DNA of 45,517 nucleotides from positions 1 to 45,517 of the forward strand of contig JBFMHE010000026.1 of the NCBI GenBank assembly GCA_040752355.1, written 5' to 3'. This DNA comes from Nitrospirota bacterium. Its GTDB lineage: Bacteria; Nitrospirota; Thermodesulfovibrionia; Thermodesulfovibrionales; Dissulfurispiraceae. Positions within the stretch are counted from its first letter, which is position 1. The number at the start of each line of letters is the position of its first letter. This document shows positions 22,082 through 45,517 of the stretch, in pieces. Below the pieces are notes generated by a model. It was not told the DNA's origin. It was given only the letters and a program-made list of their open reading frames with translations, and made no database searches. The position numbers and the translations under genes are program-made.

Positions 22082-22150
22082 CCTTTCATTATAAAACAAA
22101 GCGTCCGTCCATTTCTTTCGGGCGGCGCAGCCGCGCCCCTGTTTTCCGCA

Positions 22151-22181
22151 TTGACAATTCGAAAATCGGAATTGCTATAAT
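22151..22181 (+). promoter_or_regulatory. Sigma-70-type promoter of the pentahaem cytochrome gene
   Basis: TTGACA at 22151-22156 and TATAAT at 22176-22181 are both perfect consensus hexamers with a 19-base spacer. The GTG start codon at 22217 lies 36 bases downstream, with GAGGAGGAA in between. Confidence 0.65.
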
Positions 22182-22216
22182 TAAGCCGCAGTGCATCGTT
22201 GTCTGAGGAGGAAGCC

Positions 22217-23515
22217 GTGCGCAAGGCGACAGCGGTAATGATTGGTACAGGGCTCTTGGTTATTGCCGCAGCTGTCTTCGCGCGGACGTCGGAGTATTCG
22301 CCTTCATCGACCTGTCTCAACTGTCATCCCGCTATCTTCAAGCAGCATGAGGCCTCGGAACATGAGCGGTCGTTCACCAATCCCGTTTTTCAGGCCCACT
22401 ATTTCAAGGAGCTGCTCCCGAAGGCGGCTGACGATGAAGGGCTGGCAAAGGAGGCGGACGCCTGCACCGCCTGTCATGCCCCCCTTGCCTATCTCAAACA
22501 TAAAAAGCATGTCACCTCAATCGACCAGGTTGATCCGCGCATGTCGGGCGTTACCTGCGACTTCTGCCATGTCATTTCGGGCTATCGCGGGGAACAGCCC
22601 GGAAACGGCAACTTTATTGCAGCGCCGAGCGATATAAAGCTGGGCCCCTTTGCCATCGACACGACGTGGCACCGGGCGTATTCCGAGCTCCATACGAAAA
22701 GCGAGTTTTGCGCCATCTGTCATAATGCCGTCAACCGCCACGGCCTCGAGATAAAATCCACCTTTACGGAATGGAAAGACAGCGGGTATGCGCAGCAAGG
22801 CATCCAGTGCCAGGACTGCCATATGACGGTCCTCGGATTTCTGACCGGCGGCAAGGCGGTCTACGAGTCGGGCCCGGCAGCGGTCATGATCATGAACAGC
22901 CCCGCTGAAAGAGAGAGGATTTATACGCATCGGTTCCCCGGCGCGCACTCGCACTCACAGGTCTCCGGCGCTGTCACCCTCGACATCGGGGCCGGGCACG
23001 CGACCGCAGCTCCGGGCGATGAGATTGCGATAACGGTGAGCGTCGATAACTCGCGGACAGGGCACAAGTTTCCTTCGGGGAGTGCAGACCTGCGGCTCTT
23101 GTGGATGGAGGTCACCTCGTCCGTCGACGGCAGACCGGTACCCGTTGCCGTCGTCTCAGAGGCCGGTGATGGATATGCCGTAGCGGGCAAAGGGCCTTCT
23201 GATCGGGAGATCCTCGGGGATGATGTGCCGGAAGGGAGCCGCATGTACCGGGCGGTCTTCGCCGATAAGGAGGGAGCGCAGACCCTGTCATCGTACAATG
23301 CGCTGCGTGCTGTCTTCGATAACCGCCTCGGCGCCGGTGAAGTCAGGAAAGAGACCTATCGTATAAAGCTCCCGGCGGACGGCGGCACAATGCTTTCCAT
23401 AGCCGTTTCATTGAGATACCTCCCTTATCCCAGCTCTTTTGCAAAGCGGCTCGGGACCCCGAAGCCGGAGCCTGTCGAGGTCGCTGCAGCCAGGAAAGAT
23501 ATCCCCCTCCGCTGA
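22217..23515 (+). CDS. Pentahaem c-type cytochrome (cytochrome c554-like) with C-terminal beta domain
   Basis: 432 residues from a GTG that follows GAGGAGGAA at 22205-22213. A signal peptide covers about the first 22 residues. Five CXXCH motifs follow in the N-terminal half: CLNCH, CTACH, CDFCH, CAICH and CQDCH. Spacing and surrounding sequence (SEHERSFTNPVFQ, GVTCDFCHV, HTKSEFCAICHN, GIQCQDCHM) resemble the cytochrome c554 family. The C-terminal roughly 190 residues lack haem motifs and look like beta-sandwich sequence (GDEIAITVSVDNSRTGHKFPSG). Periplasmic or surface electron transfer is likely; the acceptor is unknown. It is a single gene divergent from mqnE. Confidence 0.87.
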   Translation: MRKATAVMIGTGLLVIAAAVFARTSEYSPSSTCLNCHPAIFKQHEASEHERSFTNPVFQAHYFKELLPKAADDEGLAKEADACTACHAPLAYLKHKKHVTSIDQVDPRMSGVTCDFCHVISGYRGEQPGNGNFIAAPSDIKLGPFAIDTTWHRAYSELHTKSEFCAICHNAVNRHGLEIKSTFTEWKDSGYAQQGIQCQDCHMTVLGFLTGGKAVYESGPAAVMIMNSPAERERIYTHRFPGAHSHSQVSGAVTLDIGAGHATAAPGDEIAITVSVDNSRTGHKFPSGSADLRLLWMEVTSSVDGRPVPVAVVSEAGDGYAVAGKGPSDREILGDDVPEGSRMYRAVFADKEGAQTLSSYNALRAVFDNRLGAGEVRKETYRIKLPADGGTMLSIAVSLRYLPYPSSFAKRLGTPKPEPVEVAAARKDIPLR

Positions 23516-23568
23516 CCCGCCGCACACCCCTGTTTTGCACGCAGTTGTTAAAATGGTAAACTATAGAG

Positions 23569-26331
23569 ATGTCTGCTCGTGAATTAATCATCGAAGGCGC
23601 CAAGCAGAACAACCTCAAGAACGTCACCCTGAGGCTCCCGCATAACCAGGTCGTGGTCATCACCGGTGTCTCGGGATCGGGAAAGTCCTCTCTGGCTTTC
23701 GATACGGTCTTTGCCGAAGGACAGTGGCGGTTCATCGAATCGCTCTCGACCTATGCGCGTCTGTTCCTCGAGAAGCTCGACCGTCCCGATGTGGACGCCA
23801 TTCATAATGTCCGCCCGGCGATCGCCCTGGAGCAGAAGAATCCCGTGAAGGGCTCTCGCTCTACCGTGGGGACCCTCACCGAGCTCTACGACCTCTTCAG
23901 GGTGCTGTATTCGCGTGTCGCCACCCCCTACTGCCCCAAATGCGAAAAGGAGATCAGGAAATGGGACCCCTCGCAGATCGTCGCCGAGCTCCTCGACAAG
24001 TATCCTAATGGGAGGGCGCTGATCATCTTCGAGACGACGGAGCCGGTAGAAACCCTCAAGCAGCGGGGCTTCCACCGGGTCTGGATGAACGATGAGGCGG
24101 TCGATATGGATGAGCTCCCCGGCGAGGTTGCCGGGCCGATCGAAGTGGTCGTCGACCGGATGGTGCTCCGTGACGAGCCGCGCCTTTCGGACTCCGTCGA
24201 GCTGACCTGGCGGGAGGGCAAAGAGAACGTGAAGGTCGTGGTGCTGAAAGGCCACGACACCGAGAACAGAGAGGCGCTTACCCTTCGCTTCTCGTCGAAG
24301 AATACCTGCGACGACTGCGGGCTCTCGCTGCCCGAGCCCACGCCGATCCTCTTCTCCTTCAACCATCCGGTCTGCGCCTGCCCCGAGTGCAAGGGTTTCG
24401 GCAATATCCTCATCTACGACGAGGATCTCATTATCCCCGATACATCGCTCTCTCTCGCGAAGGGCGCCATCGATCTCTGGGAGAAGCCCGGCTACAAGTG
24501 GTGGCGGGACCAGCTGCTCAAGGGAGCGAAGAAGTCGGGCATCGATGTGAGCAGGCCCTATCGGGAGCTCTCGAAGCAGGAGCGGTCGCTCGTCTTCAAG
24601 GGCAACCAGCACTTCGAGGGCATCGACAGCTTTTTCGAAGAGATGGAGGGAAAGCGCTATAAGCTCCATGTGCGGGTCCTCCTCAGCAGATACCGGAGCC
24701 CCGTCACCTGCCCCAAGTGCGGCGGGCAGCGGCTCTGCGAGCATGCCCTGGCGTACAGGATCGAGGGCCTCGATATCGCCGAGTTGACGGCGCTTTCCGT
24801 CTCGAAGGCGCTGAAGTGGTTCGAGGATCTTGCCCTGTCGCCGATGAAAAAGGACATCGCCCGCGAGGCGCTGCGGCAGATCGTTATGAAGCTCCGCTTC
24901 CTCGAGCGGGTCGGGCTCGAGTACCTTACGCTGAACCGGCAGGCGAAGACGCTTTCCGGGGGCGAGTACCAGCGGGTCAACCTCTCGAATCAGCTCGCCT
25001 CGGCCCTCACCGGGACGCTCTATGTCCTCGACGAGCCGACGATCGGCCTCCACCCGCGCGATACGCGGCGGGTCGCCGAGATCATGCGCGAGCTCGCCTC
25101 CCTCGGCAACACCATTCTCGTGGTGGAGCACGATAAAGATATCATCTCCTCGAGCGATTGGGTGGTCGAGCTCGGGCCCCAGGGCGGACACCTCGGCGGC
25201 GAGGTCGTCTTCTCCGGCCCCATGAACAGATTCCTCAAGGCAGATACTCTGACCGCGCACTGTCTCAGGGATGACGGCTGCCACCAGACCGCGGTCCTGC
25301 GCCACAAGACGAAGGATATACGGCTGAGGCTGCATGACTATTCGCTCACGCTGTATCATGCCACGGGGAACAACCTCAGGAACGCGACGCTCAGGGTGCC
25401 CCTCGAGACCCTGACCGTGGTTTCCGGCGTTTCCGGCTCGGGAAAGAGCAGCCTCGTCGTCGAGACGTTGTACTATGCCCTGGCCCGCCATTTCCGGATG
25501 GAGCCGGAGCATCCGCTCCCCTACAAGAAGATCGAGGGAATCGAAAAGATCAAGGGCGTCCGGCTTATCGACCAGAGCCCCATCGGCAAGACGCCCCGCT
25601 CCAACCCGCTGACCTATCTCAAGGTTTTCGATCCGATCAGGAAGCTCTTCTCCCAGCAGCTCGAGGCGAAGGCGCACGGGTACTCGCCGGGGTTCTTCTC
25701 GTTCAATGTTCCGGGCGGGCGGTGCGAAGCCTGCACCGGCGAAGGCTACCAGAAGATGGAGATGTATTTCTTCGAAGACATCTTCGTCACCTGCGAGGAG
25801 TGCAAGGGCAAGCGGTACAAGGAGGAGGCCCTCAGGGTACGGTACAAGGGGAGGAACATCAGCGAAGTCCTCGATATGACCGTGGACGACGCCTTCGACT
25901 TCTTTTCCGATATCGCGGAGATCAGGACGAAGCTGGAGCTGATGAAGGATATAGGGCTCGGCTATCTGCGGCTCGGCCAGTCGGCAACGACCCTCTCCGG
26001 CGGGGAGGCGCAGCGGCTCAAGATCTGCGCGGAGCTCTCGGTTGCCCGGCCCCAGACGAGGGGCATGCTCTACATTCTTGATGAGCCCACGGTGGGCCTG
26101 CATTATAACGATGTCATGATGCTCATGCGGATCGTGAGGCAGCTCGTCGACAGCGGCAATACCGTCCTGATCATAGAGCACAATCTCGATGTGATCGAGC
26201 AGTCGGACTGGGTTATCGACCTCGGCCCCGAGGGAGGGGACCAGGGCGGGACCATCCTCTTCGAAGGCACGCCGGAAGAGCTGAAGACCGTTGGCAACTC
26301 CTATACGGGGCAGTATCTGAAGAAAAGCTGA
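23569..26331 (+). CDS. uvrA: Excinuclease ABC subunit A
   Basis: 920 residues. UvrA recognises bulky DNA lesions and loads UvrB in nucleotide excision repair. Two ABC ATPase modules are visible: Walker A GVSGSGKSS at about 33, and again at about 622 (VVSGVSGSGKSSLV). Signatures LSGGEYQR and LSGGEAQR each precede DEPT Walker B segments. Zinc-finger cysteines occur at YCPKCEK, CDDCGLS...CACPEC and GRCEACTGEGY...CEECKGKRY. The region between the first zinc knuckle and SLPEPTPILFSF corresponds to the UvrB-binding domain and seems present. The first half is more divergent from E. coli than the second, so a UvrA paralogue is possible. The start lacks a good ribosome binding site; a -10-like TAAACT lies six bases upstream, so the message may be leaderless. 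Confidence 0.88.
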   Translation: MSARELIIEGAKQNNLKNVTLRLPHNQVVVITGVSGSGKSSLAFDTVFAEGQWRFIESLSTYARLFLEKLDRPDVDAIHNVRPAIALEQKNPVKGSRSTVGTLTELYDLFRVLYSRVATPYCPKCEKEIRKWDPSQIVAELLDKYPNGRALIIFETTEPVETLKQRGFHRVWMNDEAVDMDELPGEVAGPIEVVVDRMVLRDEPRLSDSVELTWREGKENVKVVVLKGHDTENREALTLRFSSKNTCDDCGLSLPEPTPILFSFNHPVCACPECKGFGNILIYDEDLIIPDTSLSLAKGAIDLWEKPGYKWWRDQLLKGAKKSGIDVSRPYRELSKQERSLVFKGNQHFEGIDSFFEEMEGKRYKLHVRVLLSRYRSPVTCPKCGGQRLCEHALAYRIEGLDIAELTALSVSKALKWFEDLALSPMKKDIAREALRQIVMKLRFLERVGLEYLTLNRQAKTLSGGEYQRVNLSNQLASALTGTLYVLDEPTIGLHPRDTRRVAEIMRELASLGNTILVVEHDKDIISSSDWVVELGPQGGHLGGEVVFSGPMNRFLKADTLTAHCLRDDGCHQTAVLRHKTKDIRLRLHDYSLTLYHATGNNLRNATLRVPLETLTVVSGVSGSGKSSLVVETLYYALARHFRMEPEHPLPYKKIEGIEKIKGVRLIDQSPIGKTPRSNPLTYLKVFDPIRKLFSQQLEAKAHGYSPGFFSFNVPGGRCEACTGEGYQKMEMYFFEDIFVTCEECKGKRYKEEALRVRYKGRNISEVLDMTVDDAFDFFSDIAEIRTKLELMKDIGLGYLRLGQSATTLSGGEAQRLKICAELSVARPQTRGMLYILDEPTVGLHYNDVMMLMRIVRQLVDSGNTVLIIEHNLDVIEQSDWVIDLGPEGGDQGGTILFEGTPEELKTVGNSYTGQYLKKS

Positions 26332-30091: not shown

Positions 30092-31150
30092 GATTCTCAG
30101 GGACGTTGATGAATTAGTTGAGCTATTCATTGAATCATCAGTTTTGAAATAGCCGAAGTGGTGACCCCTGTTTCACGCGCCACCGTCGCCATAGGGATGC
30201 CGTATCTTTCGATCAGTTCTCTGGCTATTTTCTTCCTTACCCGGCTGACCTGTCGCCGGCGGCTCCCGTTTCTCAACTCGCTCTCCCTTACTCCCTCTTC
30301 CTCGCATACCGCCCTGATGGTTTCATCAACTTTTTCTAAAGCCGATGCCCCGCTGAACATCCTGCTTTGCCGTTGCTCCGCTTCCGCCATGATTCTTTCA
30401 ACGAAGTCTCCGCTTCCCAGTATCCGCTCATCGGATTGTTCCGCCTCCTTTCGTCTCCTCATCGAGACCACCTGGGACCAGCCCCCCTGCGACCGGATCA
30501 ATCCTCCGCCGACAAGCTCAGGCCGATTCCCCTGTCCTATGCCCGCCTCCATGAATTTTCTGTATTCTCTCTTTGCCCGGCCTTCTTTGTCCCCGAACAA
30601 ACGGAGAATATAATCCCGGTCCTGCCAACCGTGCCTGACCTTCCCTAGGATTACGGAATGTCCGCTGTATGGATACGGGTCAAGCTCTTCCAGGGTCTTT
30701 ACGGCGCCTGCGCGCACAGGGTTCAAGTGGATGTATCTGACCAGTTCAAGGAGATATGTCCCTTCCTCGCATATTATGGACTTGTACCGGTTCTGAAACA
30801 GATATCCGTGCCTATCGTGCCTTCTGTTGTAAGCGATGGCATAGCCGGTAAGCAATTTCCTCATGAATTCGGATATCCCGGCGGGTCCGCTCCGGAGCAA
30901 TATATGGACGTGATTTCTCATAAGCGCCCAGGCATAAACCGCCGTATCTGTCTTTGCCGCAAGATTCCCAAAACGCTCAATGAAATAGTCTCTGTCTCTG
31001 TCGTCAGAGACTATAGCTTTCTTTTCTATTCCCCTGCATATTACGTGGTGCAGCGTGCCGGGAAAATCGAGTCTAGCTTGTCGTGGCATGCCATATTATC
31101 CCGCAATCCATCAATCAGGTCAACTAATTCATCAACGTCCCCTGAGAATG
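30092..31150. mobile_element. RAYT/IS200-like element bounded by 30-base inverted repeats
   Basis: About 30 bases at 30092-30122 (core ACGTTGATGAATTAGTTGA) recur inverted at 31119-31150. The two copies differ by one extra G and an outer base. Between them lies a single Y1 transposase gene whose stop and start are each within about 35 bases of the repeats. The boundary repeats are palindrome-rich in the manner of REP-type substrates of these transposases. Confidence 0.7.
30127..31089 (-). CDS. REP-associated tyrosine transposase (RAYT, Y1/HUH family)
   Basis: 320 residues. The N-terminal Y1_Tnp domain includes the HUH metal site NHVHILL (His60, His62) and GYLFQNRYKSI...LVRYIHLNPVRAG, which contains the conserved tyrosine region. 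A long C-terminal extension (about 150-320) ends in a DnaA-like or homeodomain-like helix-turn-helix (RYGIPMATVARETGVTTSAIS). RAYTs nick single-stranded DNA at REP hairpins and are often single-copy domesticated genes. Flanking inverted repeats suggest it could still be mobile. The protein looks intact. Confidence 0.9.
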   Translation of the reverse strand: MPRQARLDFPGTLHHVICRGIEKKAIVSDDRDRDYFIERFGNLAAKTDTAVYAWALMRNHVHILLRSGPAGISEFMRKLLTGYAIAYNRRHDRHGYLFQNRYKSIICEEGTYLLELVRYIHLNPVRAGAVKTLEELDPYPYSGHSVILGKVRHGWQDRDYILRLFGDKEGRAKREYRKFMEAGIGQGNRPELVGGGLIRSQGGWSQVVSMRRRKEAEQSDERILGSGDFVERIMAEAEQRQSRMFSGASALEKVDETIRAVCEEEGVRESELRNGSRRRQVSRVRKKIARELIERYGIPMATVARETGVTTSAISKLMIQ

Positions 31151-34441: not shown

Positions 34442-35833
34442 ATGGGCCAGACGAAAATGGGAGTGAAAGTAAGAGGCACCAAGAGCCTGGTTATGCTCCT
34501 TCTCCTCGCGTCCGCAGTCGTGGCAGGCTACTCTTCCTTCTCAACGCGGGAGGGAGAGGCGCTTGCAAGCACCCAGAGCTCCTGCGTGACCGGGCAGTGC
34601 CACAGCAAGATGGGCAAGGACAAGTTTGTCCACGGGCCCGTTGCAGTGGGCGACTGCGGGTCCTGCCACAGAGGAGAGGGCGAAAAGCACAGGGCGTCGC
34701 CGGCGAAGAACAGGTTCGGGCCGATAGTGAAGGTGGGCGAGCTTTGCTATCAGTGTCATGAGCGCGTGGACACCAAGAAGGGCGTCCATAAGCCGGTGAA
34801 AGACGGCAGCTGTACGAAGTGCCATGATCCGCACCAGTCCCCCTACAAATTCCAGCTCCGGGGAGAGGGGTCGAATCTCTGCTTCATGTGCCATGACAAG
34901 AAGCTCGCCTCGCGAAAATTCGTTCATGGTCCGGTCGCGGTGGGAGGGTGCTCGATGTGCCACAACCCCCATCAGACGGACTTCCCCAAAATGCTGGCCG
35001 CCGCCGGAAACGATGTCTGCCTCCTCTGCCATACGGACAAGATCGAAGCCTTCAAGAACAAGAAATTCACCCATAAGCCTGTTCAGGAGAAGTGCGCCAG
35101 CTGCCACGATCCCCATTCGGGCGATTATAAGTTCAACTTCGCTGCCGAGGGGTCTCAGGACCTGTGTCTCAAGTGCCACGCCGACAAGAGGGAGACGGTA
35201 GCCAAGGCCAGGGTAAAGCACGGCGGCCTGGAGACCGAAAAGAAGTGCCTCGCGTGCCATGATCCCCATGTCTCCGATTACGTCAAGCAGCTGGTAAAGC
35301 AGCCTGTCGAGACCTGCAATATGTGCCATGACCGCCCCCTCGACACCCAGGACGGCAAGATCATCAACATGAAGGAGCACCTGGCGAAAAACAAGGAGCA
35401 CCACGGCCCGATACTGCAGGGGGACTGCTCCGGGTGCCATAACACCCACGGCTCCGACAACTTCAGGATACTCAGGAAGTATTTTCCCCCCGTGTTCTAC
35501 GCCCCGTTCGACCCCAAAAACTATGACCTCTGCTTCAACTGCCACGAGAAGACGCTCGTGCTCGACCCGAAGACCACGACCCTGACCGGCTTCAGGAACG
35601 GCGACCAGAATCTCCACTTCGTGCATGTCAACAAGGCGGTCAAGGGACGCACCTGCCGGGCATGCCATGATGCGCATGCGACCAACAACCCGAAGCATAT
35701 ACGCGACACCGTCCCCTTCGGGGCATGGGGCCTGCCCGTAGGATTCCAGAAGACCGCAAACGGAGGCTCCTGCCTGCCCGGCTGCCATCAGCGATTCGAC
35801 TACAACCGAACCTCGGCGGTAAAGAACAGGTAG
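34442..35833 (+). CDS. Large multihaem c-type cytochrome (about 15 haem sites, paired CXXCH type)
   Basis: 463 residues with a signal segment at about 15-42. Thirteen standard motifs follow in order: CGSCH, CYQCH, CTKCH, CFMCH, CSMCH, CLLCH, CASCH, CLKCH, CLACH, CNMCH, CSGCH, CFNCH, CRACH. An atypical CVTGQCH (CX4CH) precedes them and a CLPGCH (CX3CH) closes the protein, so up to 15 haems. Alternating FVHGPV or FTHKPV and CxxCHxPH elements give the doubled-CXXCH repeat layout. It is exported, probably periplasmic or outer-surface. The start lies in a 15-base tandem duplication, so ATG 34442 or 34457 may be used. It leads an operon with TPR, thioredoxin-like and 8-haem genes. Confidence 0.9.
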   Translation: MGQTKMGVKVRGTKSLVMLLLLASAVVAGYSSFSTREGEALASTQSSCVTGQCHSKMGKDKFVHGPVAVGDCGSCHRGEGEKHRASPAKNRFGPIVKVGELCYQCHERVDTKKGVHKPVKDGSCTKCHDPHQSPYKFQLRGEGSNLCFMCHDKKLASRKFVHGPVAVGGCSMCHNPHQTDFPKMLAAAGNDVCLLCHTDKIEAFKNKKFTHKPVQEKCASCHDPHSGDYKFNFAAEGSQDLCLKCHADKRETVAKARVKHGGLETEKKCLACHDPHVSDYVKQLVKQPVETCNMCHDRPLDTQDGKIINMKEHLAKNKEHHGPILQGDCSGCHNTHGSDNFRILRKYFPPVFYAPFDPKNYDLCFNCHEKTLVLDPKTTTLTGFRNGDQNLHFVHVNKAVKGRTCRACHDAHATNNPKHIRDTVPFGAWGLPVGFQKTANGGSCLPGCHQRFDYNRTSAVKNR

Positions 35834-35838
35834 CGCGG

Positions 35839-36390
35839 ATGATGGACGATACGGGAACAGGCAATAAAAACGGAAAGACGAAGGGAAGCGCCTTGTTGCT
35901 GCGCGCAGGGATGCTCCTTCTCGCGGCATTTGCACTCTGCACGCCTGCCGGTGCCGAGGGGGGGAGGGAGAAGGCGGTGGCGCTGGTGAAGGAGGCGGCT
36001 GCCCTGCAGGCCGGAGGCAGTGCCGATAAAGCGTTATCGGCGGTAAGAGAGGCCCTCAAGGCGGACCCGGAGTATGCGGAGGCCCACGACCAGCTGGGGT
36101 ATCTTCTCCTCGCGCAAGGACAGGATGACGAGGCGATGAAGGCTTTCGATACGGCGCTCGGGCTGAATCCCAGAATACGCACTTCCAAGACGGGGAGAGG
36201 CCTCGTCCTTTTACGGAAAGGCGACCTGAAGGCAGCGGAGGCGACACTGAAGGAGGCCTTGCAGCTGAACCCCTATCCCTCGATGACCCACTATGCCCTC
36301 GGGCTTGTCTATGAACGGCTCAATGAGCATGAAAAGGCGATTGCCGAGTACAAAGAGGGTATACGGAAGCACAAGAGCGGCAGACGATGA
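35839..36390 (+). CDS. Exported TPR-repeat protein
   Basis: 183 residues from the ATG at 35839, just after the large cytochrome stop (35833). A signal or membrane-anchor segment is at about 17-38 (ALLLRAGMLLLAAFALC). Three to four tetratricopeptide repeats follow: GSADKALSAVREALKADPEYAEAHDQLGYLLL, then GQDDEAMKAFDTALGLNP, GDLKAAEATLKEALQLNP and HEKAIAEYKEGI. TPR proteins are scaffolds; here the operon context suggests a role in assembling or anchoring the cytochromes (inference). Its stop overlaps the next start (ATGA). Confidence 0.85.
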   Translation: MMDDTGTGNKNGKTKGSALLLRAGMLLLAAFALCTPAGAEGGREKAVALVKEAAALQAGGSADKALSAVREALKADPEYAEAHDQLGYLLLAQGQDDEAMKAFDTALGLNPRIRTSKTGRGLVLLRKGDLKAAEATLKEALQLNPYPSMTHYALGLVYERLNEHEKAIAEYKEGIRKHKSGRR

Positions 36391-37496
36391 GAGGGGACCG
36401 CATGAGAATGAAATTCGGGCTTACGGCAGCCGGTATCTTTGCCGCCCTTATCATCGCGTCGTTCAGCTGCACGGCGACAGCGCAGGCGCTGCTGCAGGTC
36501 GGGGCGGAGGCGCCCGGCTTCTCCCTCACGGACATTGACGGCAAGCCCGCCAGCCTCGCGAGCTATGGACAGAAAAAGACCGTTGTTATCGTGTTCTGGG
36601 CGACCTGGAGCGCTCATTCTGCCAAGGCCCTCAAACGCTTCGAAGAATTCTCGAGAAAATACGGAGAGCGGGGCGTCCAGGTCGTCGGCATCAATGTCGA
36701 CAACCAGACGATATCCGAGGCGGACCAGGAGAAGATAAAGAAATTCGTCAAGGAGTTGGGCATAACCTATCCCATTCTCCTCGACAGGGGACTGAATACT
36801 TTCCATACCTACGAGGTCATGGCAATCCCGTCGACTACGGTCGTGAGCAGTGGCAAGATCATGTATACCATGCCCGGGCTGCCGCTCGTAGGCACAGAGG
36901 ACATGTTCGAATACCTGCAGGTGCTGGCCGGCGATCCGCCGCGCAAGAAGACGGCGCCGCAGTACGAGCCGCTCCACGATGCAGTGGCTACCGCCGGCCT
37001 CGCCAGGGGATTCGTGAAGAAGAACCAGCGCGACATGGCGTATCCCCTCTATCAGAAGGCGATAGAGAAAGACCCCAAGTTCATGCTTCCCTACGTGGAG
37101 CTGGCAAAGCTCTACGAAATAGAAGGAAAAAATGCAGAGGCAGAAGGTATACTAAAGAAGGCGCTCTCCGTAGACCCCGAGCAGGCGGTCGTGATGGCCG
37201 AGCTGGGATATCTGCAGGCGAGGGCCGGCAGGGTCAGGGAGGCGCTCGACCTCCTGGACAAGGCGGTGAAAAAGGATTCGTATCCCCCGGCGCAGTACTA
37301 CAGGGCGTATGCGCTCGGGAAGAGCGGCCAGCTCAAGGAGGCGCTCGGCGCTTTTGACGAGGCGGCGGCGCTGAACCCGTATGACGCGGCGCTTTACCAG
37401 GTGAGGGCCGAGATTTATGAGCAGAACAAAATGGTGAAGGAAGCCGCGTCCGATTACCGGAAAGCGCTCGAGCTGATCTTGAAGATCAGGAGTTGA
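36387..37496 (+). CDS. Thioredoxin-fold (TlpA/AhpC-type) and TPR fusion lacking the CXXC
   Basis: 369 residues. After an N-terminal signal (about 1-33) comes a TlpA-like thioredoxin domain at about 38-175: APGFSLTDIDGKPASL, VVIVFWATW, GVQVVGINVDN and the cis-proline AIPSTTVV are all recognisable. The expected WCxxC active site reads Trp74-Ser75-Ala-His-Ser78, so both redox cysteines are serine. The second half (about 200-369) contains at least four TPRs ending in DYRKALELI. A redox-inactive fold used as a binding platform is the likely reading. It overlaps the TPR gene before it, and the 8-haem cytochrome gene starts about 17 bases past its stop. Confidence 0.87.
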   Translation: MRGDRMRMKFGLTAAGIFAALIIASFSCTATAQALLQVGAEAPGFSLTDIDGKPASLASYGQKKTVVIVFWATWSAHSAKALKRFEEFSRKYGERGVQVVGINVDNQTISEADQEKIKKFVKELGITYPILLDRGLNTFHTYEVMAIPSTTVVSSGKIMYTMPGLPLVGTEDMFEYLQVLAGDPPRKKTAPQYEPLHDAVATAGLARGFVKKNQRDMAYPLYQKAIEKDPKFMLPYVELAKLYEIEGKNAEAEGILKKALSVDPEQAVVMAELGYLQARAGRVREALDLLDKAVKKDSYPPAQYYRAYALGKSGQLKEALGAFDEAAALNPYDAALYQVRAEIYEQNKMVKEAASDYRKALELILKIRS

Positions 37497-37513
37497 CCCT
37501 GGCATGGTGCCCT

Positions 37514-38545
37514 ATGCACGCTATCGGAAAGAGGTCTTTGCTGAGGGCTAGCGCGGCGCTTACTGCCATGGGCGTTCTGGTTTGCTGGTCCGTCGGCGCT
37601 GAGACAGGCGGCGCCGAGGCGTCTTCTCCGCGCTTGTCTATCATCGAGCCTGCGGACAGGAGCGTTGCCGAGGGCGAGCTCACGGCGGTTTCCATAAAGG
37701 CGGACGACCTCGGCATCGATGCGATACGGATTGCCGTTAACGGAGTCGCGATGTCCCACATCCCTCTGGAGAAAGGGCGCAATTACTATTGCGCGACCGG
37801 CACGCTCAGCTTCGGTCCTAATGAGATACAGGTGAGCGCTGTCAAGGGCGGAAAGGTCGTCGAATCGGGAAAGGTAACGGTCTTTTTCCGGTCCGATCTC
37901 TCGAGGACGTACGGCGTGAGCCCTGCCGGGTTCCAGAAAAGGCCGTTCCACCGGAAAGACAGGGAAGCGGCCTGCGCGGCGTGCCACAGGATGGACGTCG
38001 CCGCCGCGGACATAAGGCCTCAGAGGCCGGAGGATTCGCTCTGCTACCAGTGCCATTCGAAAATAACGGCGGCGTACAGCAATGTCCACGGGCCTGCGGC
38101 CCGGTGGGACTGCCTTGCGTGCCATGAGAGGCAGTCGGCCCCTGCGAAGTATGAGGCGCGCACCCCTTCCCGCGACCTCTGTTTTGTCTGCCACGAGGAA
38201 AAAAGGGGTGAGTGGGCGCCGAAGAAGTACGTCCACGGGCCGACAGCGACGGGGAAATGCACGATATGTCATAGTCCCCATGCCTCGAACAACCTGTCCT
38301 GGCTCAAAAAGCCCTCGTGGGAGCTGTGTACCACCTGTCATGAAGACAGGGCCTCTGGCGCACATGTTATCGTGGGATTCGGGTCGGGCTCGCACCCGAC
38401 GCGGGGAAAGCCCGATCCCACCAGATATGGAAAAGAGCTGTCATGCGCAAGCTGTCACAATCCGCATGCCTCCGACTCGAAGTCGCTCTTCATTAACGAC
38501 CAGCAAGATCCATACAGCTTATGCAAATTCTGTCACAAGGTGTAG
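37514..38545 (+). CDS. Octahaem c-type cytochrome with N-terminal beta domain
   Basis: About 343 residues. A signal peptide (about 1-30) is followed by an Ig-like beta domain at about 40-130 (RLSIIEPADRSVAEGE, VNGVAMSHIPLEKG, GPNEIQVSAVKGGK). The C-terminal two thirds holds eight CXXCH motifs: CAACH, CYQCH, CLACH, CFVCH, CTICH, CTTCH, CASCH, CKFCH. VHGPxA-CxxCH and CHxPHAS elements are shared with the large cytochrome upstream. The ATG at 37514 is used here; a TTG at 37493 that overlaps the previous stop is an alternative and has CAGGAG beside it. Periplasmic or outer-membrane electron transfer is inferred. Confidence 0.87.
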   Translation: MHAIGKRSLLRASAALTAMGVLVCWSVGAETGGAEASSPRLSIIEPADRSVAEGELTAVSIKADDLGIDAIRIAVNGVAMSHIPLEKGRNYYCATGTLSFGPNEIQVSAVKGGKVVESGKVTVFFRSDLSRTYGVSPAGFQKRPFHRKDREAACAACHRMDVAAADIRPQRPEDSLCYQCHSKITAAYSNVHGPAARWDCLACHERQSAPAKYEARTPSRDLCFVCHEEKRGEWAPKKYVHGPTATGKCTICHSPHASNNLSWLKKPSWELCTTCHEDRASGAHVIVGFGSGSHPTRGKPDPTRYGKELSCASCHNPHASDSKSLFINDQQDPYSLCKFCHKV

Positions 38546-38604: not shown

Positions 38605-39984
38605 GTGCAGCGGAAGATCCTTATAGTCGATGACGAGACGTTCATAGCGAAGTCGATGGAGCGTCACCTCGAGAGAGAGGGGTACGACGTCTCCACCGCC
38701 GAATCGGGCGAAGAGGGGCTCGAGATATTCAAGACGGAGCTCCCCGATATCGTGCTGCTCGACATCCAGCTGCCCGACATGAACGGCCTCGAGGTGTTCG
38801 AGGAGATCAGGCGGATGAGCAAGGACACGATCGTCATCATCATCAGCTCTCACGGCGACATAGAGACCGCGGTTTCGGCCATCAAGCTCGGCGCCTACGA
38901 CTTTGTCGAGAAGCCCTTCGATCTGAAGCGGATCTCCGTGCTCATCAAGAAAGCGACCGAGACGGTGGTGCTGAAGAGGGAGGTAAGCTCGCTGCGCGAA
39001 GAGCAGTCCGGCAAGTACAGCTTCAGCAGCATTATCGGGCAGTCGCCGGCCATGGAGGAGGTCAAGCGGCTCGCCAGGAAGATAGCCGAGAGCGATGCGA
39101 CGACGATTCTCATTCAGGGCGAAAGCGGCACGGGTAAAAACCTCCTTGCGCGCGCGATCCACTACAACAGCAGCCGGCAGTTCGAGCCCTATGTCGAGGT
39201 GACTGCAACGGCGCTTCCCGACACGCTGGTCGAGAGCGAGCTGTTCGGGTATGAAAAGGGCGCGTTTACCGATGCAAAGGTCGCAAAGAAAGGACTCTTC
39301 GAGCTTTCCGACGGGGGCACCATCTATCTCGACGAAATCGGCGACATAAAACCCTCCACCCAGTCGAAGCTGCTGAGGGTCATAGAGGAAAAGACCTTCA
39401 AGAGAGTAGGGGGCCTCAAGGACGTGCACGTCAATGTGCGGGTGATCGCCGCCACGAACAAGGACCTCGAAAGCTCGGTCAAGGACGGCTCGTTCAGGGC
39501 CGATCTCTATTACCGCCTCAAGGTGATTCCTATCGTCATCCCCCCGATGAGAGAGAGGAAGGAGGACATCATGCCGCTCGTGCTCCACCTCATCGGGCAG
39601 TTCAACAAGGAGTTCAAGAAGGCGATCAAGGGCGTCTCGCCCGAGGCCGAGCGGATACTGGTGGCCTATCCCTGGCCCGGCAATATCAGGGAGCTCAAGA
39701 ACGCCATCGAGCGCATCTGTATTCTTGAAGACGCCGAGATCATCTATCCCGAGCATATTCCCCTCGAAATCAGGGAATATATCGCAGAAGAGATCGAGGA
39801 CGGCGAGAGAGCGGTGGTCAACCTGCCCCCCCAGGGGGTCTCCCTCAGCACCGTCGAAAAGCGCCTGGTGATGCAGGCGCTCGCCATGGTCGACAACAAC
39901 CAGACGAGAGCGGCCCGGCTGCTGGGCGTGACCAGGGATGTCCTCCGCTATAAAATGCAGAAGTTCGGACTGCTTAAAAAGTGA
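38605..39984 (+). CDS. NtrC-family sigma-54-dependent response regulator
   Basis: 459 residues from a GTG with GGGAGG eight bases upstream. Receiver domain 1-120: acidic pocket VDDE, phospho-acceptor aspartate in LLDIQLPDMNG, lysine in VEKPF. The AAA+ domain is at about 140-375: Walker A GESGTGKN, the sigma-54 contact loop reads GAFTDA instead of GAFTGA, Walker B is GGTIYLDEIGD, and the arginine finger region FRADLYYRL follows. A C-terminal Fis-type helix-turn-helix closes it (NQTRAARLLGVTRDVLRYKMQK). No cognate kinase is adjacent. Its location between the cytochrome operon and the OmcS-like array makes those genes likely targets, and a sigma-54 promoter lies at 42680. Confidence 0.95.
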   Translation: MQRKILIVDDETFIAKSMERHLEREGYDVSTAESGEEGLEIFKTELPDIVLLDIQLPDMNGLEVFEEIRRMSKDTIVIIISSHGDIETAVSAIKLGAYDFVEKPFDLKRISVLIKKATETVVLKREVSSLREEQSGKYSFSSIIGQSPAMEEVKRLARKIAESDATTILIQGESGTGKNLLARAIHYNSSRQFEPYVEVTATALPDTLVESELFGYEKGAFTDAKVAKKGLFELSDGGTIYLDEIGDIKPSTQSKLLRVIEEKTFKRVGGLKDVHVNVRVIAATNKDLESSVKDGSFRADLYYRLKVIPIVIPPMRERKEDIMPLVLHLIGQFNKEFKKAIKGVSPEAERILVAYPWPGNIRELKNAIERICILEDAEIIYPEHIPLEIREYIAEEIEDGERAVVNLPPQGVSLSTVEKRLVMQALAMVDNNQTRAARLLGVTRDVLRYKMQKFGLLKK

Positions 39985-40100: not shown

Positions 40101-41132
40101 GTGGAGCATCGGAACGTAGTGCTGGCCATAATAGATGCAGTGATTCTCAGCGTTGTGGTCTTTCTGCTGGGGATGGCGGTCGTGTTCGCGCCGGAGGGAG
40201 GCCGGGCTGCCGTCGTCTCGAAAGAGTGCGGTGATTGCCATGTCCTCTATCCGGGGATGATGAAGGCGGAAGAGGGAAAAGCGCAGAATATCATCTGCGT
40301 AAACTGCCATGCGAGCAATAACGCCGATACCGTGAAGGTCCTGGGCGGTGTCAAGGTGCCGGTGGTGCGCAACACCGTCGAGCCGCGGATGCCGCTTGCC
40401 GGTGGCAACTTCTACCATATCGCTGCGCTGGGTGACCGGCGCGGGCACAATGTGGACGGCATCAGCCCCCGCGACGAAAAGTTCGGCGGTCTCCCTCCCG
40501 GCTACAACCGTTCCCTCGACCCCTCGCTCATAGGCTTCGTCGACAGCAAGCCGCTGACCTGCGCAGGCGCGAACGGCTGCCACGGCGACCGGAGCAAGGA
40601 CAATCCGTTCGAGGCTATCAGGGGCGCTCACCATGCAAAGGACGCCCCTCTGGACGGCAGCTCGACCGCGAAGAGTTTCCGCTATCTTAAAATCACCGGA
40701 AAGCTGAAGGGGGTCACCGGCCTGGAGGACAAGGATTGGCTGAATGTCTCCTCCACAAAGCATAACGAGTATGCGCCCTCGATGAGCCTGTTGTGCGCGG
40801 GGTGCCATGGAGACTTCCACAGCAGGGAGGCTGTCGGGCCGGCCAGCCCCTGGTTCAGGCATCCCACCGATGTCGTGCTGCCGAAGCGGGGCGAGTATGG
40901 CAGTTATAAGATGTACAGCCCCTCTGCCCCGGTCGCCAGGACATCCCTGCCGGAAGCGGTGAGCGGCCAGGTCAGCGCCGGCGACGATGTCGTCATGTGT
41001 CTTTCGTGCCATTTCGCCCACGCCGGACCCCATGAGTCGCTCCTGCGGTGGGATTATGATGCCGTTGTTTCGGGCGAAGCAACGCCCGAAGGCGGCGGAG
41101 GCTGTTTCATATGCCATGCGGGGAAATTATGA
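40101..41132 (+). CDS. OmcS-like hexahaem cytochrome, paralogue 1
   Basis: 343 residues from a GTG following GGGAG. An N-terminal membrane/signal helix covers about 8-30. Haem motifs in order: CGDCH, CVNCH, a CX5CH site CAGANGCH, CAGCH, CLSCH, CFICH. Conserved landmarks are AGGNFYHIA, GHNVDGIS, GAHHAKD, CHGDFH followed by WFRHPTD, VMCLSCHFAH, LRWDYDA and a closing CHAGK. The motif order and the RHP and CLSCHxAH elements resemble Geobacter OmcS, which polymerises into conductive filaments. It overlaps paralogue 2 by four bases (ATGA). Signal cleavage near Ala30 and export are inferred. Confidence 0.85.
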   Translation: MEHRNVVLAIIDAVILSVVVFLLGMAVVFAPEGGRAAVVSKECGDCHVLYPGMMKAEEGKAQNIICVNCHASNNADTVKVLGGVKVPVVRNTVEPRMPLAGGNFYHIAALGDRRGHNVDGISPRDEKFGGLPPGYNRSLDPSLIGFVDSKPLTCAGANGCHGDRSKDNPFEAIRGAHHAKDAPLDGSSTAKSFRYLKITGKLKGVTGLEDKDWLNVSSTKHNEYAPSMSLLCAGCHGDFHSREAVGPASPWFRHPTDVVLPKRGEYGSYKMYSPSAPVARTSLPEAVSGQVSAGDDVVMCLSCHFAHAGPHESLLRWDYDAVVSGEATPEGGGGCFICHAGKL

Positions 41133-42196
41133 GAGCGGGCGCCGGACGGATGAGAAGAGCTGTCGCTGCAGCGATGCTGGCGCTTTTCAGCGCAGTGTTC
41201 TGGGCAGCGGTCGAGTCGCCTGATGCAAGGGTTTCGGGGAAGTGCAAAGACTGCCACAGCATGCACGCGGAGTCTCCTTCTCCCCATCTCACCAAGGGAG
41301 GGTGCCTGGGATGCCACGCCATGAATCCCGAAGGCAAGCAGAACATCGTCTTTGCCGGCCGGGCCCGGATACCCCAGGTGCTTCATAACATGGAGAACGG
41401 CGACCTCGCGGGCGGCAATTTCTACTATGTCGCGGACGGCTTTGCCCCTGACTACAGCAAAGGGCACAACGTGCTCGGCATCTCCAAGCGGCAGCCCGCG
41501 CCGAGGGATGTCCCTCCCGGGTTCATGCGGAGCGTGCCGATACCGGGCGGCGTCGGGCCGCTCAGGTGGCTGCGCGAACAGCAGCTCACCTGCGCAGGCA
41601 CATGGGGCTGCCACGGCAACAGGACCATCGCCGACCCGTACAAGTCTATGCAGGGCGCCCACCACGAGGACGACAGCGTTATCGACGGCACCACGGTCGG
41701 CAGGAGCTACCGCTTCCTGTACGGGGTGCTCGGCGCGGAGCACCGCGACTGGGAGTACCTGGCCACCATCGATAACCACAACGGCTACCGGGGAGACAAA
41801 GACCATGTCTCCATGGATACCATAAGTTATTTCTGCGGCCAGTGCCACGGTGAGGTCCATCCCCATGCGCAGCTGGGCGGCGTAAACCCCCTTATCATGG
41901 CGCAGCATACGCATCTCACCGACATAGCTTTTTCAGCGGTGAAAGGAGGCTATGAGGGCTCCGAGTTCCAGGCGTACGTCGTCTATGATCTCTTTACTCC
42001 CGTGGCCTACATGAACCCCAAGGGCAACGAGAAAGTCGTCGACGCGGACAGCATCGTCATGTGCCTTTCGTGCCACCGCCCCCATGCGACTCCTTACCAG
42101 CAGATGCTCCGCTGGGACTATTCAAAGATGTTTGCCGGCTCCGGGGAATCGGTGCCGGGCTGCAAGGCCTGCCACACGGGAAAGCTGAGGCGATAG
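41129..42196 (+). CDS. OmcS-like hexahaem cytochrome, paralogue 2
   Basis: 355 residues; the ATG at 41129 overlaps the previous TGA and has GGGGA just upstream. Signal peptide about 1-32. Haem motifs: CKDCH (followed by SMH), CLGCH, the CX5CH site CAGTWGCH, CGQCH, CLSCH, CKACH. AGGNFYYVADG, KGHNVLGIS, GAHHEDDSVIDG, YRFLYGVLG and LRWDYSKM align it with its neighbours. A longer segment between the fourth and fifth haem (about 240-315) lacks the RHP element of the others. It is co-translated with paralogue 1, and the pair may form a heteromeric or duplicated unit. Confidence 0.85.
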   Translation: MRAGAGRMRRAVAAAMLALFSAVFWAAVESPDARVSGKCKDCHSMHAESPSPHLTKGGCLGCHAMNPEGKQNIVFAGRARIPQVLHNMENGDLAGGNFYYVADGFAPDYSKGHNVLGISKRQPAPRDVPPGFMRSVPIPGGVGPLRWLREQQLTCAGTWGCHGNRTIADPYKSMQGAHHEDDSVIDGTTVGRSYRFLYGVLGAEHRDWEYLATIDNHNGYRGDKDHVSMDTISYFCGQCHGEVHPHAQLGGVNPLIMAQHTHLTDIAFSAVKGGYEGSEFQAYVVYDLFTPVAYMNPKGNEKVVDADSIVMCLSCHRPHATPYQQMLRWDYSKMFAGSGESVPGCKACHTGKLRR

Positions 42197-42645
42197 ACCG
42201 GCTCACAGTCCATGGCCTGCAGCTCGTAGCTGCCTTCATAAGATCGCTGCCTCCTGTTCCTGAACATCCCCTTACCCCCCCTTAACCATTGCAGTCGTTC
42301 CTGGCAAAAGGCTCTCTCTATCCCACTGCGGAAATTCACGCAGTCTGCTGAGCGAAATAGCGCAAAATTGGGGTCGGCGAGAGGGGGCATGATAGTTTAA
42401 TTGTATAAATCAGCTTATTAAGAATAAAGATAGACATGCTCAAGTTCCTGCTGTAGGGGGGTGAGGAATGACATATAAAAACAATGCCTTGCTGCCAATA
42501 TCCGGCACTTATCGGCACTTCCGCTGCTCCGGCTCAGCTTTACCTATATTATTCAATCACATAACATATCGTGCAAGAATATGCTTGACAAAAACCATTG
42601 TATGGAATAGTTTATTAGAGGTAAGTAGATCCTTTCACCTCTGCG

Positions 42646-42675
42646 TGCCGAAAGCACTGCATTCCCCTTTCGGCA
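42646..42675 (+). promoter_or_regulatory. Inverted repeat beside the sigma-54 promoter
   Basis: TGCCGAAAG (42646-42654) and CTTTCGGCA (42667-42675) are perfect inverted nonamers with 12 bases between them, ending four bases before the sigma-54 element. It may be a protein-binding operator or a hairpin. It has no T-run, so it is not a classical terminator, and it is closer to the promoter than typical enhancer sites. Confidence 0.4.
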
Positions 42676-42679
42676 GGGC

Positions 42680-42695
42680 TGGCATAGCGATTGCA
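42680..42695 (+). promoter_or_regulatory. Sigma-54 (-24/-12) promoter
   Basis: TGGCATAGCGATTGCA matches the TGGCAYR-N4-TTGCW consensus at every defined position, with GG and GC separated by exactly ten bases. Transcription would start near 42707, giving a leader of about 120 bases before the cytochrome gene at 42830. An NtrC-type activator is encoded at 38605 in the same locus. Confidence 0.72.
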
Positions 42696-42829
42696 ATGTA
42701 GAAGGTGTGAGTGGAAACGAAGCGAGCTCAATAAGCACGGGGAGGTGAGAGGCGAACATGAGAGATAAAGAAGAAACAAAGGCAATTCTCGGATCATTAT
42801 TAATAGTAAACCCCAAAGGAGGTAGAGAC

Positions 42830-43849
42830 ATGAAGAGGACAGTAGTAACAACAATTGCAGTTGTCCTGGCCCTGATGATGGTCTACGGGCTCTCGACAAC
42901 CGGCAAGGTCGAAGCAGCGGCAGTGGGCGGCGTATGCTCGAACTGCCACACCATGCACAACAGCCAGAACGGCACAACCCCGACAGGCGGGACGGCAAAC
43001 CCGAACGCGTATCTTACCTTGAACACCTGCACAGGCTGTCACGCGGATACCTCGAGGCCGACCGCTAATATTTTCAACTCAGGGACTACCGGGGCAGGAG
43101 GGACTCTGATAGCATCCGGTACGTTTAGTGCCGCTATTGCTACTAGCGACTCTCGTAAACACAACCCCGTATACATTGAAAACGGCGCAGGCGCCACGAC
43201 CGGAATTACGGCAGATGCTACCCTGACGGCAACAGCGCCCGGCGGCACGATGGCTACCAACGTGCTTTCATGTGCAGGCACCAACGGATGCCACGGCACC
43301 AGCACCGGTATCGCGGGCAATCACCACAACGCAAGCGCCGGCTACCGCTTCCTCTATGTTGATGACTCCACGGCGGTTTTAGGCAAGGGACCTGTTGATG
43401 GATCAAACAACCAGACAAGGGAGTTGGGCGGCGCAACAACAACGAGCCATAATGTTTATAGTTCGAGCACGACTGCAGGCATCAACAAATACTGTGCAAA
43501 GTGCCACGGCAGCTTCCACGGTACTGCTAACACCGGTTCGGGTAGCCCGTTCACCAGACACCCTACCGATAATACGATCGGCTCGAATGGAACAGCAGGC
43601 TGGATAGCTTCTTACGCGCAGGATGCGGACTACCATAACACTCCTGTTGCGTTTGCCAACATAACTACAATTTCGACAAGCGCAGCTTATGATGCTGCTA
43701 CGCTTGCCAATGCACAGGTAGCATGTGTATCGTGCCATAGGGCTCATGGTTCGAATCAGCCCGATCTGCTCAGGTTTGACTACGCTGCTCAGAGCGCGGG
43801 CGGCGGCGACGTGAGCGGCTGTCTCACCTGCCACGTACGGCAGAGATAG
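42830..43849 (+). CDS. OmcS-like hexahaem cytochrome, paralogue 3 (Thr/Ser/Gly-rich)
   Basis: 339 residues; AAAGGAGGT ends about nine bases before the ATG. Signal peptide about 1-30 ending KVEAAA. Haem motifs: CSNCH (followed by TMHNSQNG), CTGCH, the CX5CH site CAGTNGCH, CAKCH (followed by GSFHG and FTRHPTD), CVSCHRAH, CLTCH. The CxxCHTMHNS start and the RHP and CHRAH elements are the closest of the set to OmcS. Between haems it is rich in Thr, Ser, Gly, Asn and Ala, as is usual for extracellular filament proteins. It has its own sigma-54 promoter and a strong terminator after it. Confidence 0.87.
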   Translation: MKRTVVTTIAVVLALMMVYGLSTTGKVEAAAVGGVCSNCHTMHNSQNGTTPTGGTANPNAYLTLNTCTGCHADTSRPTANIFNSGTTGAGGTLIASGTFSAAIATSDSRKHNPVYIENGAGATTGITADATLTATAPGGTMATNVLSCAGTNGCHGTSTGIAGNHHNASAGYRFLYVDDSTAVLGKGPVDGSNNQTRELGGATTTSHNVYSSSTTAGINKYCAKCHGSFHGTANTGSGSPFTRHPTDNTIGSNGTAGWIASYAQDADYHNTPVAFANITTISTSAAYDAATLANAQVACVSCHRAHGSNQPDLLRFDYAAQSAGGGDVSGCLTCHVRQR

Positions 43850-43873
43850 TCGAATAGGAAACAACAACACCGA

Positions 43874-43916
43874 GGCAAGGGAGCTGACCCGTTCAGCTCC
43901 CTTGCCCAGCATTTTT
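43874..43916 (+). terminator. Factor-independent terminator after paralogue 3
   Basis: Arms GGCAAGGGAGCTGA (43874-43887) and TCAGCTCCCTTGCC (43893-43906) pair perfectly around CCCGT and are followed by CAGCATTTTT. It separates paralogue 3 from paralogue 4, which begins at 43984; partial read-through is possible since no strong promoter is evident between them. Confidence 0.8.
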
Positions 43917-43983
43917 CAGAGGCCAAAGTCTCATAGGTAGTGGGTAAAAATTATAAAAACCGTGAGAAAGGAAGGGGGGCAGA

Positions 43984-45144
43984 ATGAGCACTACTACCCG
44001 CAGAATCATCACCTCTTCTATTGTATTTTCGGCAATCTTCTTTTTCGTCTTGTCTGCTCTGGAGCTGCCGCTTTCCGCAAAAGTGACCGGCCCCTGCGCC
44101 AACTGCCATACCATGCACAACAGCCAGAACGGCAGCCCCGTGGCGAGGACTGGAACAGGGACCGGGTGGAATGGATCGAATCAGCTCGCCGGCGGTACAG
44201 TGCAGACTACGCCGTTGGGCACACTATTGACAACCGACTGCGTCGGCTGCCACACATCGACCGGCAGTGCCCCTATAGTCAGTCTGGCGGGGAACGATGT
44301 TCCGATTGTCTATAATATGACAGCTCCGTCAACAACTCTCGCCGGCGGGAATTTTCATTGGGTTGCGCAGGGAGGTGCGGAGAATCACAAAAAAGGCCAT
44401 AATGTTTTTAATATAGCTCCTCAAGACCTCAACCTGAATTCTGCACCTGGAGCGAATCCGGCGGCTTGCGGCGATAGCACCTGTCATACCACTTTAGCTG
44501 TTTCCCCTGGTACTAATAACTACGATAGAGGCGGATGTCAGGGGTGCCATGTGTTTACCTACCACCATGAAAACAACAATAACACCATGAGCGGTGTTTA
44601 CCGGTATTTAAAAGGGCATGGCTCGTCGCCGACCTTTCCTCCCTTGCCATCGGCTCGCCGAAACATCACCAGCTTTCCAGATTATGTAAAAGGCATAGGA
44701 GATTCGGACTGGGAGTATACCAAATCCGCAGCCGACCACAATTTTTACAATGGGTCCAATGCAGTATATACGAGTAACGGAGCCGGCCTTACAAACCAAA
44801 AGACGGTCTCGGCATTCTGCGCAGGCTGCCACAGCGTATTCCATGATGAAATGGGGAGCGGCAGCCCGTGGTTGCGGCATCCGAGCGATAAGTTCTTGCC
44901 GCAGACAGGCGAGTATGGAGGATATAATCCTGTAACCAGTTACAGCACAGAAGCGCCGGTTGCATGGACAAATCCGGCTACACCCGCGAGGGCGGAAGCC
45001 GTAGTCATGTGCCTCTCGTGCCACAGGGCACACGGCTCTGACCAGCCCGATATGCTGAGATGGGACTACTCAGCTATGAACGCAGGCAACGGCGGCGCCG
45101 CAGCCGGCAAAGGATGCTTCACCTGCCACACCGGCAAAGACTGA
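43984..45144 (+). CDS. OmcS-like multihaem cytochrome, paralogue 4
   Basis: 386 residues; GGAAGGGGGG provides the ribosome binding site. Signal peptide about 1-33. Haem motifs: CANCH (TMHNSQNG), CVGCH, an atypical CX4CH site CGDSTCH, CQGCH, CAGCH (SVFHDEMGSGSPWLRHPSD), CLSCHRAHGSDQPDMLRWDY, CFTCH. AGGNFHWVAQGG and KGHNVFNIAPQD parallel OmcS segments. It thus has six standard motifs plus one unusual one. The mature protein is rich in Asn, Gly, Ser and Thr. The first 20 residues after haem 1 are nearly identical in layout to paralogue 3, indicating recent duplication. A strong terminator follows. Confidence 0.87.
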   Translation: MSTTTRRIITSSIVFSAIFFFVLSALELPLSAKVTGPCANCHTMHNSQNGSPVARTGTGTGWNGSNQLAGGTVQTTPLGTLLTTDCVGCHTSTGSAPIVSLAGNDVPIVYNMTAPSTTLAGGNFHWVAQGGAENHKKGHNVFNIAPQDLNLNSAPGANPAACGDSTCHTTLAVSPGTNNYDRGGCQGCHVFTYHHENNNNTMSGVYRYLKGHGSSPTFPPLPSARRNITSFPDYVKGIGDSDWEYTKSAADHNFYNGSNAVYTSNGAGLTNQKTVSAFCAGCHSVFHDEMGSGSPWLRHPSDKFLPQTGEYGGYNPVTSYSTEAPVAWTNPATPARAEAVVMCLSCHRAHGSDQPDMLRWDYSAMNAGNGGAAAGKGCFTCHTGKD

Positions 45145-45180: not shown

Positions 45181-45212
45181 AGGGCACTGCACAAAACGCA
45201 GTGCCCTTTTTT
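45181..45212 (+). terminator. Factor-independent terminator after paralogue 4
   Basis: AGGGCACTGC (45181-45190) pairs with GCAGTGCCCT (45198-45207) around ACAAAAC and is followed by a run of six T. It closes the cytochrome array and is the presumed insertion target of the adjoining group II intron. Confidence 0.9.
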
Positions 45213-45216
45213 ATTG

Positions 45217-45517
45217 GTGCGCCCGTCAGTGCGCACTCACTCGGCTGATGTCGCCGGAAGGCGGTGTGAGGGATGGACAGAAGTCAGCAGAGGGTATAGT
45301 AGTCCGCCTGAGGTGGACGAAGGACCGAACCTGTCATACTGCTTTAGACCGAATCTCTGACTGTATTGGGCAGATGCCTCGCAAGAGGGTCTGAAGCCGG
45401 AAGTAGCGGACGGAATCCGCAAGGTATGGCTGGGTGCTTATATTACAACAGGCGAAGAGGCAATAACAGAGCGAGCTGACAGGAACCGCCGTATGCCGAA
45501 CGGCACGTACGGTGGGG
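45217..45517 (+). mobile_element. Degenerate group II intron (IIC-like), cut by the window end
   Basis: A GTGCG-type 5' boundary (GTGCGCCCG, 45217) begins four bases after the terminator T-run. CAGAAGTCAGCAGAGGG at about 45278 and GAAGGACCGAAC at about 45321 match the domain III region of IIC introns such as that of Oceanobacillus. The last 34 or so bases, GAACCGCCGTATGC...GCACGTACGGTGG, are the domain V hairpin. No reverse transcriptase is present, and a domain I-like stretch (GTCTGAAGCCGGAAGTAGCGG, near 45391) follows rather than precedes domain III, so the copy looks rearranged. Comparison is from memory of published introns. Confidence 0.75.

Follow-up and report, generated by a model that had tools for sequence, protein, structure and literature searches.

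An array of OmcS-like multihaem cytochromes in Nitrospirota: candidate wire subunits and candidate conduit-proximal adaptors

Four adjacent multihaem cytochrome genes on contig JBFMHE010000026.1 of a Nitrospirota bacterium (GenBank assembly GCA_040752355.1), analysed here over its whole 45,517 nucleotides ("the window"), raise two questions: whether they encode an extracellular cytochrome wire of the kind formed by OmcS of Geobacter sulfurreducens, and whether all four would play the same part in it. Both bear on how such wires are anchored to the cell and how electrons enter and leave them; charge entry and exit were left open by the OmcS structure paper (PMC6584659). P1 to P4 denote the array genes in order (40101-45144), P5 to P7 their paralogues elsewhere in the same genome, G and L labels the genomes of relatives and fetched loci, and C labels contigs of the window's own genome. 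The reading we favour, at what we judge to be about even chances, holds P3 and P4 to be wire subunits and P1 and P2 to be conduit-proximal adaptors, in an electron-export (or uptake) cluster of this Nitrospirota order. The four genes are as follows.

40101..41132, + strand: P1, first gene of the array, exported hexahaem OmcS-family cytochrome with five CxxCH motifs and one CX5CH
41111-42196 (open reading frame; likely start 41129), + strand: P2, exported hexahaem OmcS-family cytochrome with five CxxCH motifs and one CX5CH
42758-43849 (open reading frame; likely start 42830), + strand: P3, exported hexahaem type B OmcS-family cytochrome with five CxxCH motifs and one CX5CH
43984..45144, + strand: P4, exported type A OmcS-family cytochrome with seven haem motifs, six CxxCH and one CX4CH

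That these proteins are homologous to OmcS, as the initial annotation proposed, is near certain. Profiles built from the genome's own seven paralogues, from 44 type A relatives and from 42 type B relatives each retrieved OmcS from the PDB (E-values of 3e-19, 7e-22 and 1.3e-23, respectively), aligned over most of its chain; it was the sole strong match, with at most one other at E ≤ 0.01 (1.5e-4, in one profile only), and neither OmcE nor OmcZ appeared among the matches. The link requires profiles, because single-sequence searches gave a weak match to OmcS for P3 (8e-4) and none for P4. A template-free AlphaFold2 model of P4, of middling confidence (predicted local distance difference test, pLDDT, 63.5; predicted template-modelling score, pTM, 0.68), retrieved OmcS as its top Foldseek match (E-value 1e-4), with a Z score of 13.9 over 271 residues and OmcE next at 4.1; a fold search against a viral fold library returned no match. 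Profile and fold matches together make the homology firm.

The description of four adjacent exported multihaem cytochromes is borne out: the reading frames lie side by side on the + strand, each begins with an N-terminal signal sequence (judged by inspection), and P1-P3 are 36-40% identical to P4, with 54 invariant columns in the alignment, far beyond chance. At the likely start of P2 an ATGA overlaps the P1 stop, and the likely start of P3 is preceded by AAAGGAGG. The mature parts contain six haem motifs in P1, P2 and P3 and seven in P4. The initial annotation further held that all four share one haem order and one set of landmarks; the homology behind this stands, but the landmarks vary. P1 has the N-terminal motif CGDCHVLYP, without xMH, and P2 keeps CHSMH but has HTHLTD where RHP is expected. 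The Ser/Thr-rich P3 begins CSNCHTMHN and carries ASGTF for AGGNF, KHNPV for GHNV, LRFDY for LRWDY and CHVRQR for CHxGK. The CLSCHRAH element is intact in P4 alone, its counterparts being CLSCHFAH in P1, CLSCHRPH in P2 and CVSCHRAH in P3.

Overlooked in the earlier reading was the third haem site. With OmcS (PDB 6ef8, 6nef) the family shares the haem order and the CxxCHTMHN start, GHN, CHxxxH, RHP and CLSCHRAH elements, and five of the six CxxCH sites of OmcS are collinear and canonical in the array, whereas site 3 is C-x-G-x-x-x-C-H (CX5CH; C.G...CHG) in P1-P3 and is doubled in P4, as CX4CH plus CxxCH, giving seven haems. The CX5CH form is invariant in 42/42 type B sequences, an invariance that suggests it binds haem; like P4, the majority of type A proteins show CX2-4CH plus CxxCH at this site. 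OmcS also lacks conserved HH and HN histidines that the array family has. No paper using the CX5CH spelling turned up in our literature search; one report counts haem motifs as CXnCH with n from 2 to 5 (PMC12545173).

Do the four genes belong to one recent family expansion or to distinct classes? In a tree of 107 sequences, on which OmcS occupies a very long branch and the root is unsure, P1 with its orthologues forms one clade and P2 with its orthologues another (each branch at 100 by the SH-like approximate likelihood-ratio test), P4 falls within type A, and P3 stands among other type B proteins. Recent tandem duplication was thus rejected as the origin of the array; judged by this tree, P1-P4 are four old, long-separated lineages. 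Their composition divides in the same place. Ser, Thr, Asn and Gly make up 44.5% of P3 and 39.0% of P4 versus 27.0% of P1 and 25.5% of P2 (OmcS, 37.0%), in agreement with the residue bias first noted for P3 and P4. These two and P5-P7 are, like OmcS, Ser/Thr-rich and charge-poor; types A and B as a whole resemble OmcS in composition, and the P1 and P2 lineages have less Ser/Thr and more charged residues, a contrast by lineage that gave p of about 1e-13 and 1e-10 in rank tests on related, and hence not independent, sequences.

Of 396 genomes sampled from the phylum, 16 encode a P1 orthologue, and each of these belongs to the window's own order; a P2 orthologue lay directly after P1 in 20/20 genomes with a P1 neighbourhood (the window's own included). 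Three further type B paralogues, two of them in tandem, bring the genome's total to seven (L142:2520-4785 on contig C2 and L028:8567-9724 on contig C20). Of 30 sampled loci of Nitrospirota and Desulfobacterota with at least two members, 22 have types A and B as neighbours (counted by eye). OmcS-like arrays are already known from Desulfobacterota; OmcS-type arrays with a recurrent layout are now seen in Nitrospirota. Our literature search found no description of a P1 lineage without the donor histidine discussed below, of a P2 lineage, or of their fixed place.

In its haem ligands, too, P1 departs from the other members of the family. In OmcS, 11 of the 12 haem ligands come from a subunit's own chain and one, on haem 5, from its neighbour (PMC6584659), and inter-subunit histidine ligation is common to OmcE and OmcS (PMC9473688). 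The N-terminal CxxCHxMH histidine is present in P2 (CHSMH), P3 (CHTMH) and P4 (CHTMH), and P1 has tyrosine in its place. We take the donor to the neighbour's haem 5 in OmcS to be this residue, the second histidine of CxxCHTMH. At that column the P1 orthologues have histidine in 0 of 18 (Y in 12, F in 5, V in 1; lineage motif CxxCHxL[YFV]PG), as against 17 of 18 P2 orthologues, 40/40 type B and 29/29 type A proteins and OmcS itself; outside the P1 lineage, 86 of 87 aligned relatives retain it. The other haem-ligand histidine columns are unchanged in P1, save in 3/18 orthologues at the CHxxFH position. Since the presumed donor is missing from all 18 orthologues, we keep P1 apart from the OmcS-type wire subunits. 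Under the OmcS rule, should it hold here, P1 could take a ligand from its neighbour and offer none in return, as would befit a subunit at the end of a wire.

A converse arrangement occurs once, in a 794-amino-acid fusion in G062 (L210:3260-5644, - strand) in which an OmcS-like N-terminal region, retaining the donor histidine and haems 1-4 but lacking haems 5 and 6, is joined to a multihaem cytochrome related to a separate gene that follows the last OmcS-like gene in G015. By the same logic this protein could give a ligand and accept none, a mirror-image piece, although it is a single case and a possible assembly artefact.

Signals around P3 may mark a division in expression as well.

38605..39984, + strand: NtrC-type sigma-54 response regulator, directly upstream of P1; its orthologue (72%) holds the same place in G015
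42680..42695, + strand: sigma-54 (-24/-12) promoter-like site TGGCATAGCGATTGCA, 150 nucleotides before P3, without mismatch
43874..43906, + strand: terminator-like hairpin of 14 pairs with a T run, after P3

Within the window the search matched TGGCATAGCGATTGCA alone, against 0.88 matches expected by chance at up to one mismatch. Similar sites precede the P3-position genes of G015, G054, G061, G148 and G033, with a weaker one in G056, and a further sigma-54-type site lies 56 nucleotides before P6. In G015 such sites also precede P1 and the fourth gene, and a histidine kinase precedes the NtrC-type regulator. The region upstream of P3 gave no Rfam riboswitch match at E-values up to 1, nor did the loci of six relatives at gathering cut-offs.

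What the array might connect to can be seen from its neighbours and from the same region in relatives.

34442..35833, + strand: multihaem cytochrome with 13 CxxCH motifs (Paired_CXXCH); orthologue (72%) in G015
35725..36390, + strand: TPR protein, upstream of the array
36387..37496, + strand: thioredoxin-fold (ResA/AhpC-TSA) plus TPR protein, upstream of the array, possibly serving apocytochrome maturation
37493..38545, + strand: multihaem cytochrome with eight motifs (Paired_CXXCH); orthologue in the same place in G015
45245..45325, + strand: group II intron (D1-D4) match inside the repeat that ends the contig; not part of the system

In 11 of the relatives that carry P1, a porin-cytochrome cluster opens with P1 and P2 and continues with between one and three OmcS-like genes. 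Over the extent of the fetched stretches these genes are followed by an NHL propeller, a lipoprotein, a barrel-like protein of 760-860 amino acids, small lipoproteins, a CsgG-like protein, a PPIC isomerase, 26-haem and 16-haem cytochromes and, usually, another OmcS-like gene. The 760-860-residue protein has the look of an outer-membrane barrel and no Pfam hit; its profile matches strongly in four relatives. In the window the contig ends just after P4 in a repeat (45200-45517) whose copies end C14 and, in part, C35. Being shared by both, the repeat does not single out a continuation, and C35 carries no conduit genes. Elsewhere in the genome, contig C9 encodes two MtrB/PioB-type outer-membrane barrels (18851-24224; L198, L199) with c-type cytochrome hits beside them, which could serve instead as the conduit.

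From homology and setting, P1-P4 likely have a role in extracellular electron transfer, and P3 and P4 are, on balance, probably wire subunits. In our model P1-P4 make up the extracellular portion of a gene cluster for electron export (or uptake). P3, P4 and P5-P7 would assemble head to tail, and the second histidine of each N-terminal CxxCHTMH would ligate a haem of the adjoining subunit, as in OmcS. P1 would occupy one end, its haem-1 face toward the outer-membrane conduit or another partner, and the coupled P2 would be the subunit next to it; the sigma-54 promoter before P3 would let the wire subunits be induced on their own, probably under the control of the upstream NtrC-type regulator. 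The initial annotation had singled out P3 and P4 as the best filament subunits, with P1 and P2 as caps, adaptors or alternative filaments. That split gains support from composition, from the separate lineages, from the sigma-54 site and from the histidine loss in P1, while polymerisation by any of the four stays at the level of prediction that homology to OmcS permits. P1 is a candidate end or anchor piece because it keeps the haem ligands apart from the putative inter-subunit one, is always first in the array and has its partner P2 next. The more specific proposal, that it is a dedicated acceptor-only end subunit at the conduit end, docking the wire on an outer-membrane cytochrome complex with P2 as first link, we advance tentatively and think somewhat unlikely.

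Several observations weigh against assigning these roles. The donor residue in OmcS is a presumed one, and one P2 orthologue (G002, L138:10758-11792) also lacks the xMH histidine, in a shortened N-terminus (CSFCHSRNLADCVGCH). Conserved non-proximal histidines number eight in the family (seven in P1) for six to seven haems; since they equal or exceed the need, all haems could be ligated internally. The type B model, that of P3, was poor and a fold search with it came back empty, so that the fold result covers P4. Scans of G132, G105 and G002 found no sigma-54 site, and neither the barrel nor the 26-haem cytochrome was found in the window's own genome, in which the contig breaks in a repeat after P4. 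Filament-forming or conductive activity of P1-P4 is itself putative, drawn from genes and the P4 model.

The internal-ligation count opens the way to a rival that we regard as a real but minority possibility: OmcS-fold cytochromes that do not polymerise, acting as exported monomers or small oligomers on the cell surface with every haem ligated in its own chain. It can draw on the seven conserved non-proximal histidines that remain without the donor, enough for the six haems of P1-P3 and the seven of P4, and the filaments are in any case putative in a field where the role of OmcS wires is disputed (for example PMC11077965). The changed residue of P1 would then merely alter the surroundings of haem 1, a view to which we lend the same limited credence. 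It sits poorly, however, with the retention of the xMH histidine outside the P1 lineage, where it would be spare, and with a sequence and fold nearest to those of a proven filament subunit.

A less probable account makes the four proteins equivalent isoforms, alternative wires for different conditions, with P1 and P2 building wires of their own through another interface. This would fit a genome with seven paralogues and the many loci in which different types are neighbours, and syntrophic sulfate reducers are known to carry several putative nanowire cytochromes each (PMC10553843), but the fixed P1-P2 order, the ligand loss fixed in P1 only and the differing composition of P1 and P2 are left unexplained. 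Least probable by far is that these are unrelated soluble multihaem cytochromes (NrfH/NrfB, DmsE or c7 type) sharing merely haem motifs with OmcS. Pfam and NCBIfam do report Paired_CXXCH, c7 and NrfH-like domains, but in short, local hits mostly below curated cut-offs, whereas the family profiles align OmcS over most of its chain at 1e-22 to 1e-23; the best structural match of the P4 model is OmcS and not a cytochrome of another kind, and this rival is largely refuted.

The favoured reading, of wire subunits with conduit-proximal adaptors, can be set beside known systems. From the Geobacter filaments the array differs in more than site 3 and the donor of P1: it has an NtrC/sigma-54 setting with no riboswitch match upstream of P3, and whereas OmcS forms filaments, the array proteins are known from genes and one model. 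OmcE and OmcZ are also cytochrome filaments, OmcE being a weak fold match to P4. In the available text of PMC12545173, DA_402 of Desulfurivibrio alkaliphilus is an OmcS homologue with seven CX2-5CH motifs, modelled as a filament, induced over 100-fold during iron respiration and proposed to act in extracellular electron transfer. Its DALI score to OmcS, 14.3, is near the Z score of P4, a likeness by homology that does not imply orthology, and the same text reports no P1/P2-type partners for DA_402 and its clade. The oet cassettes of syntrophic and anaerobic methanotroph (ANME)-partner sulfate reducers likewise place several putative nanowire cytochromes (OmcX, OmcS-like and Apc2a) next to a porin-cytochrome conduit (PMC10553843). 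They belong to another phylum, and on our side no conduit was found in the window's own genome and the barrel likeness does not come from comparison with OetI.

P1 offers a concrete, testable candidate for the end or anchor piece of a wire; if the assignment is true, it would be a first genetic handle on the start, stop and attachment of cytochrome nanowires. Apart from the array, the window also encodes a multihaem protein with a cytochrome c554-like domain (22199-23515) and an IS200-like (Y1) transposase-domain protein (30127-31089).

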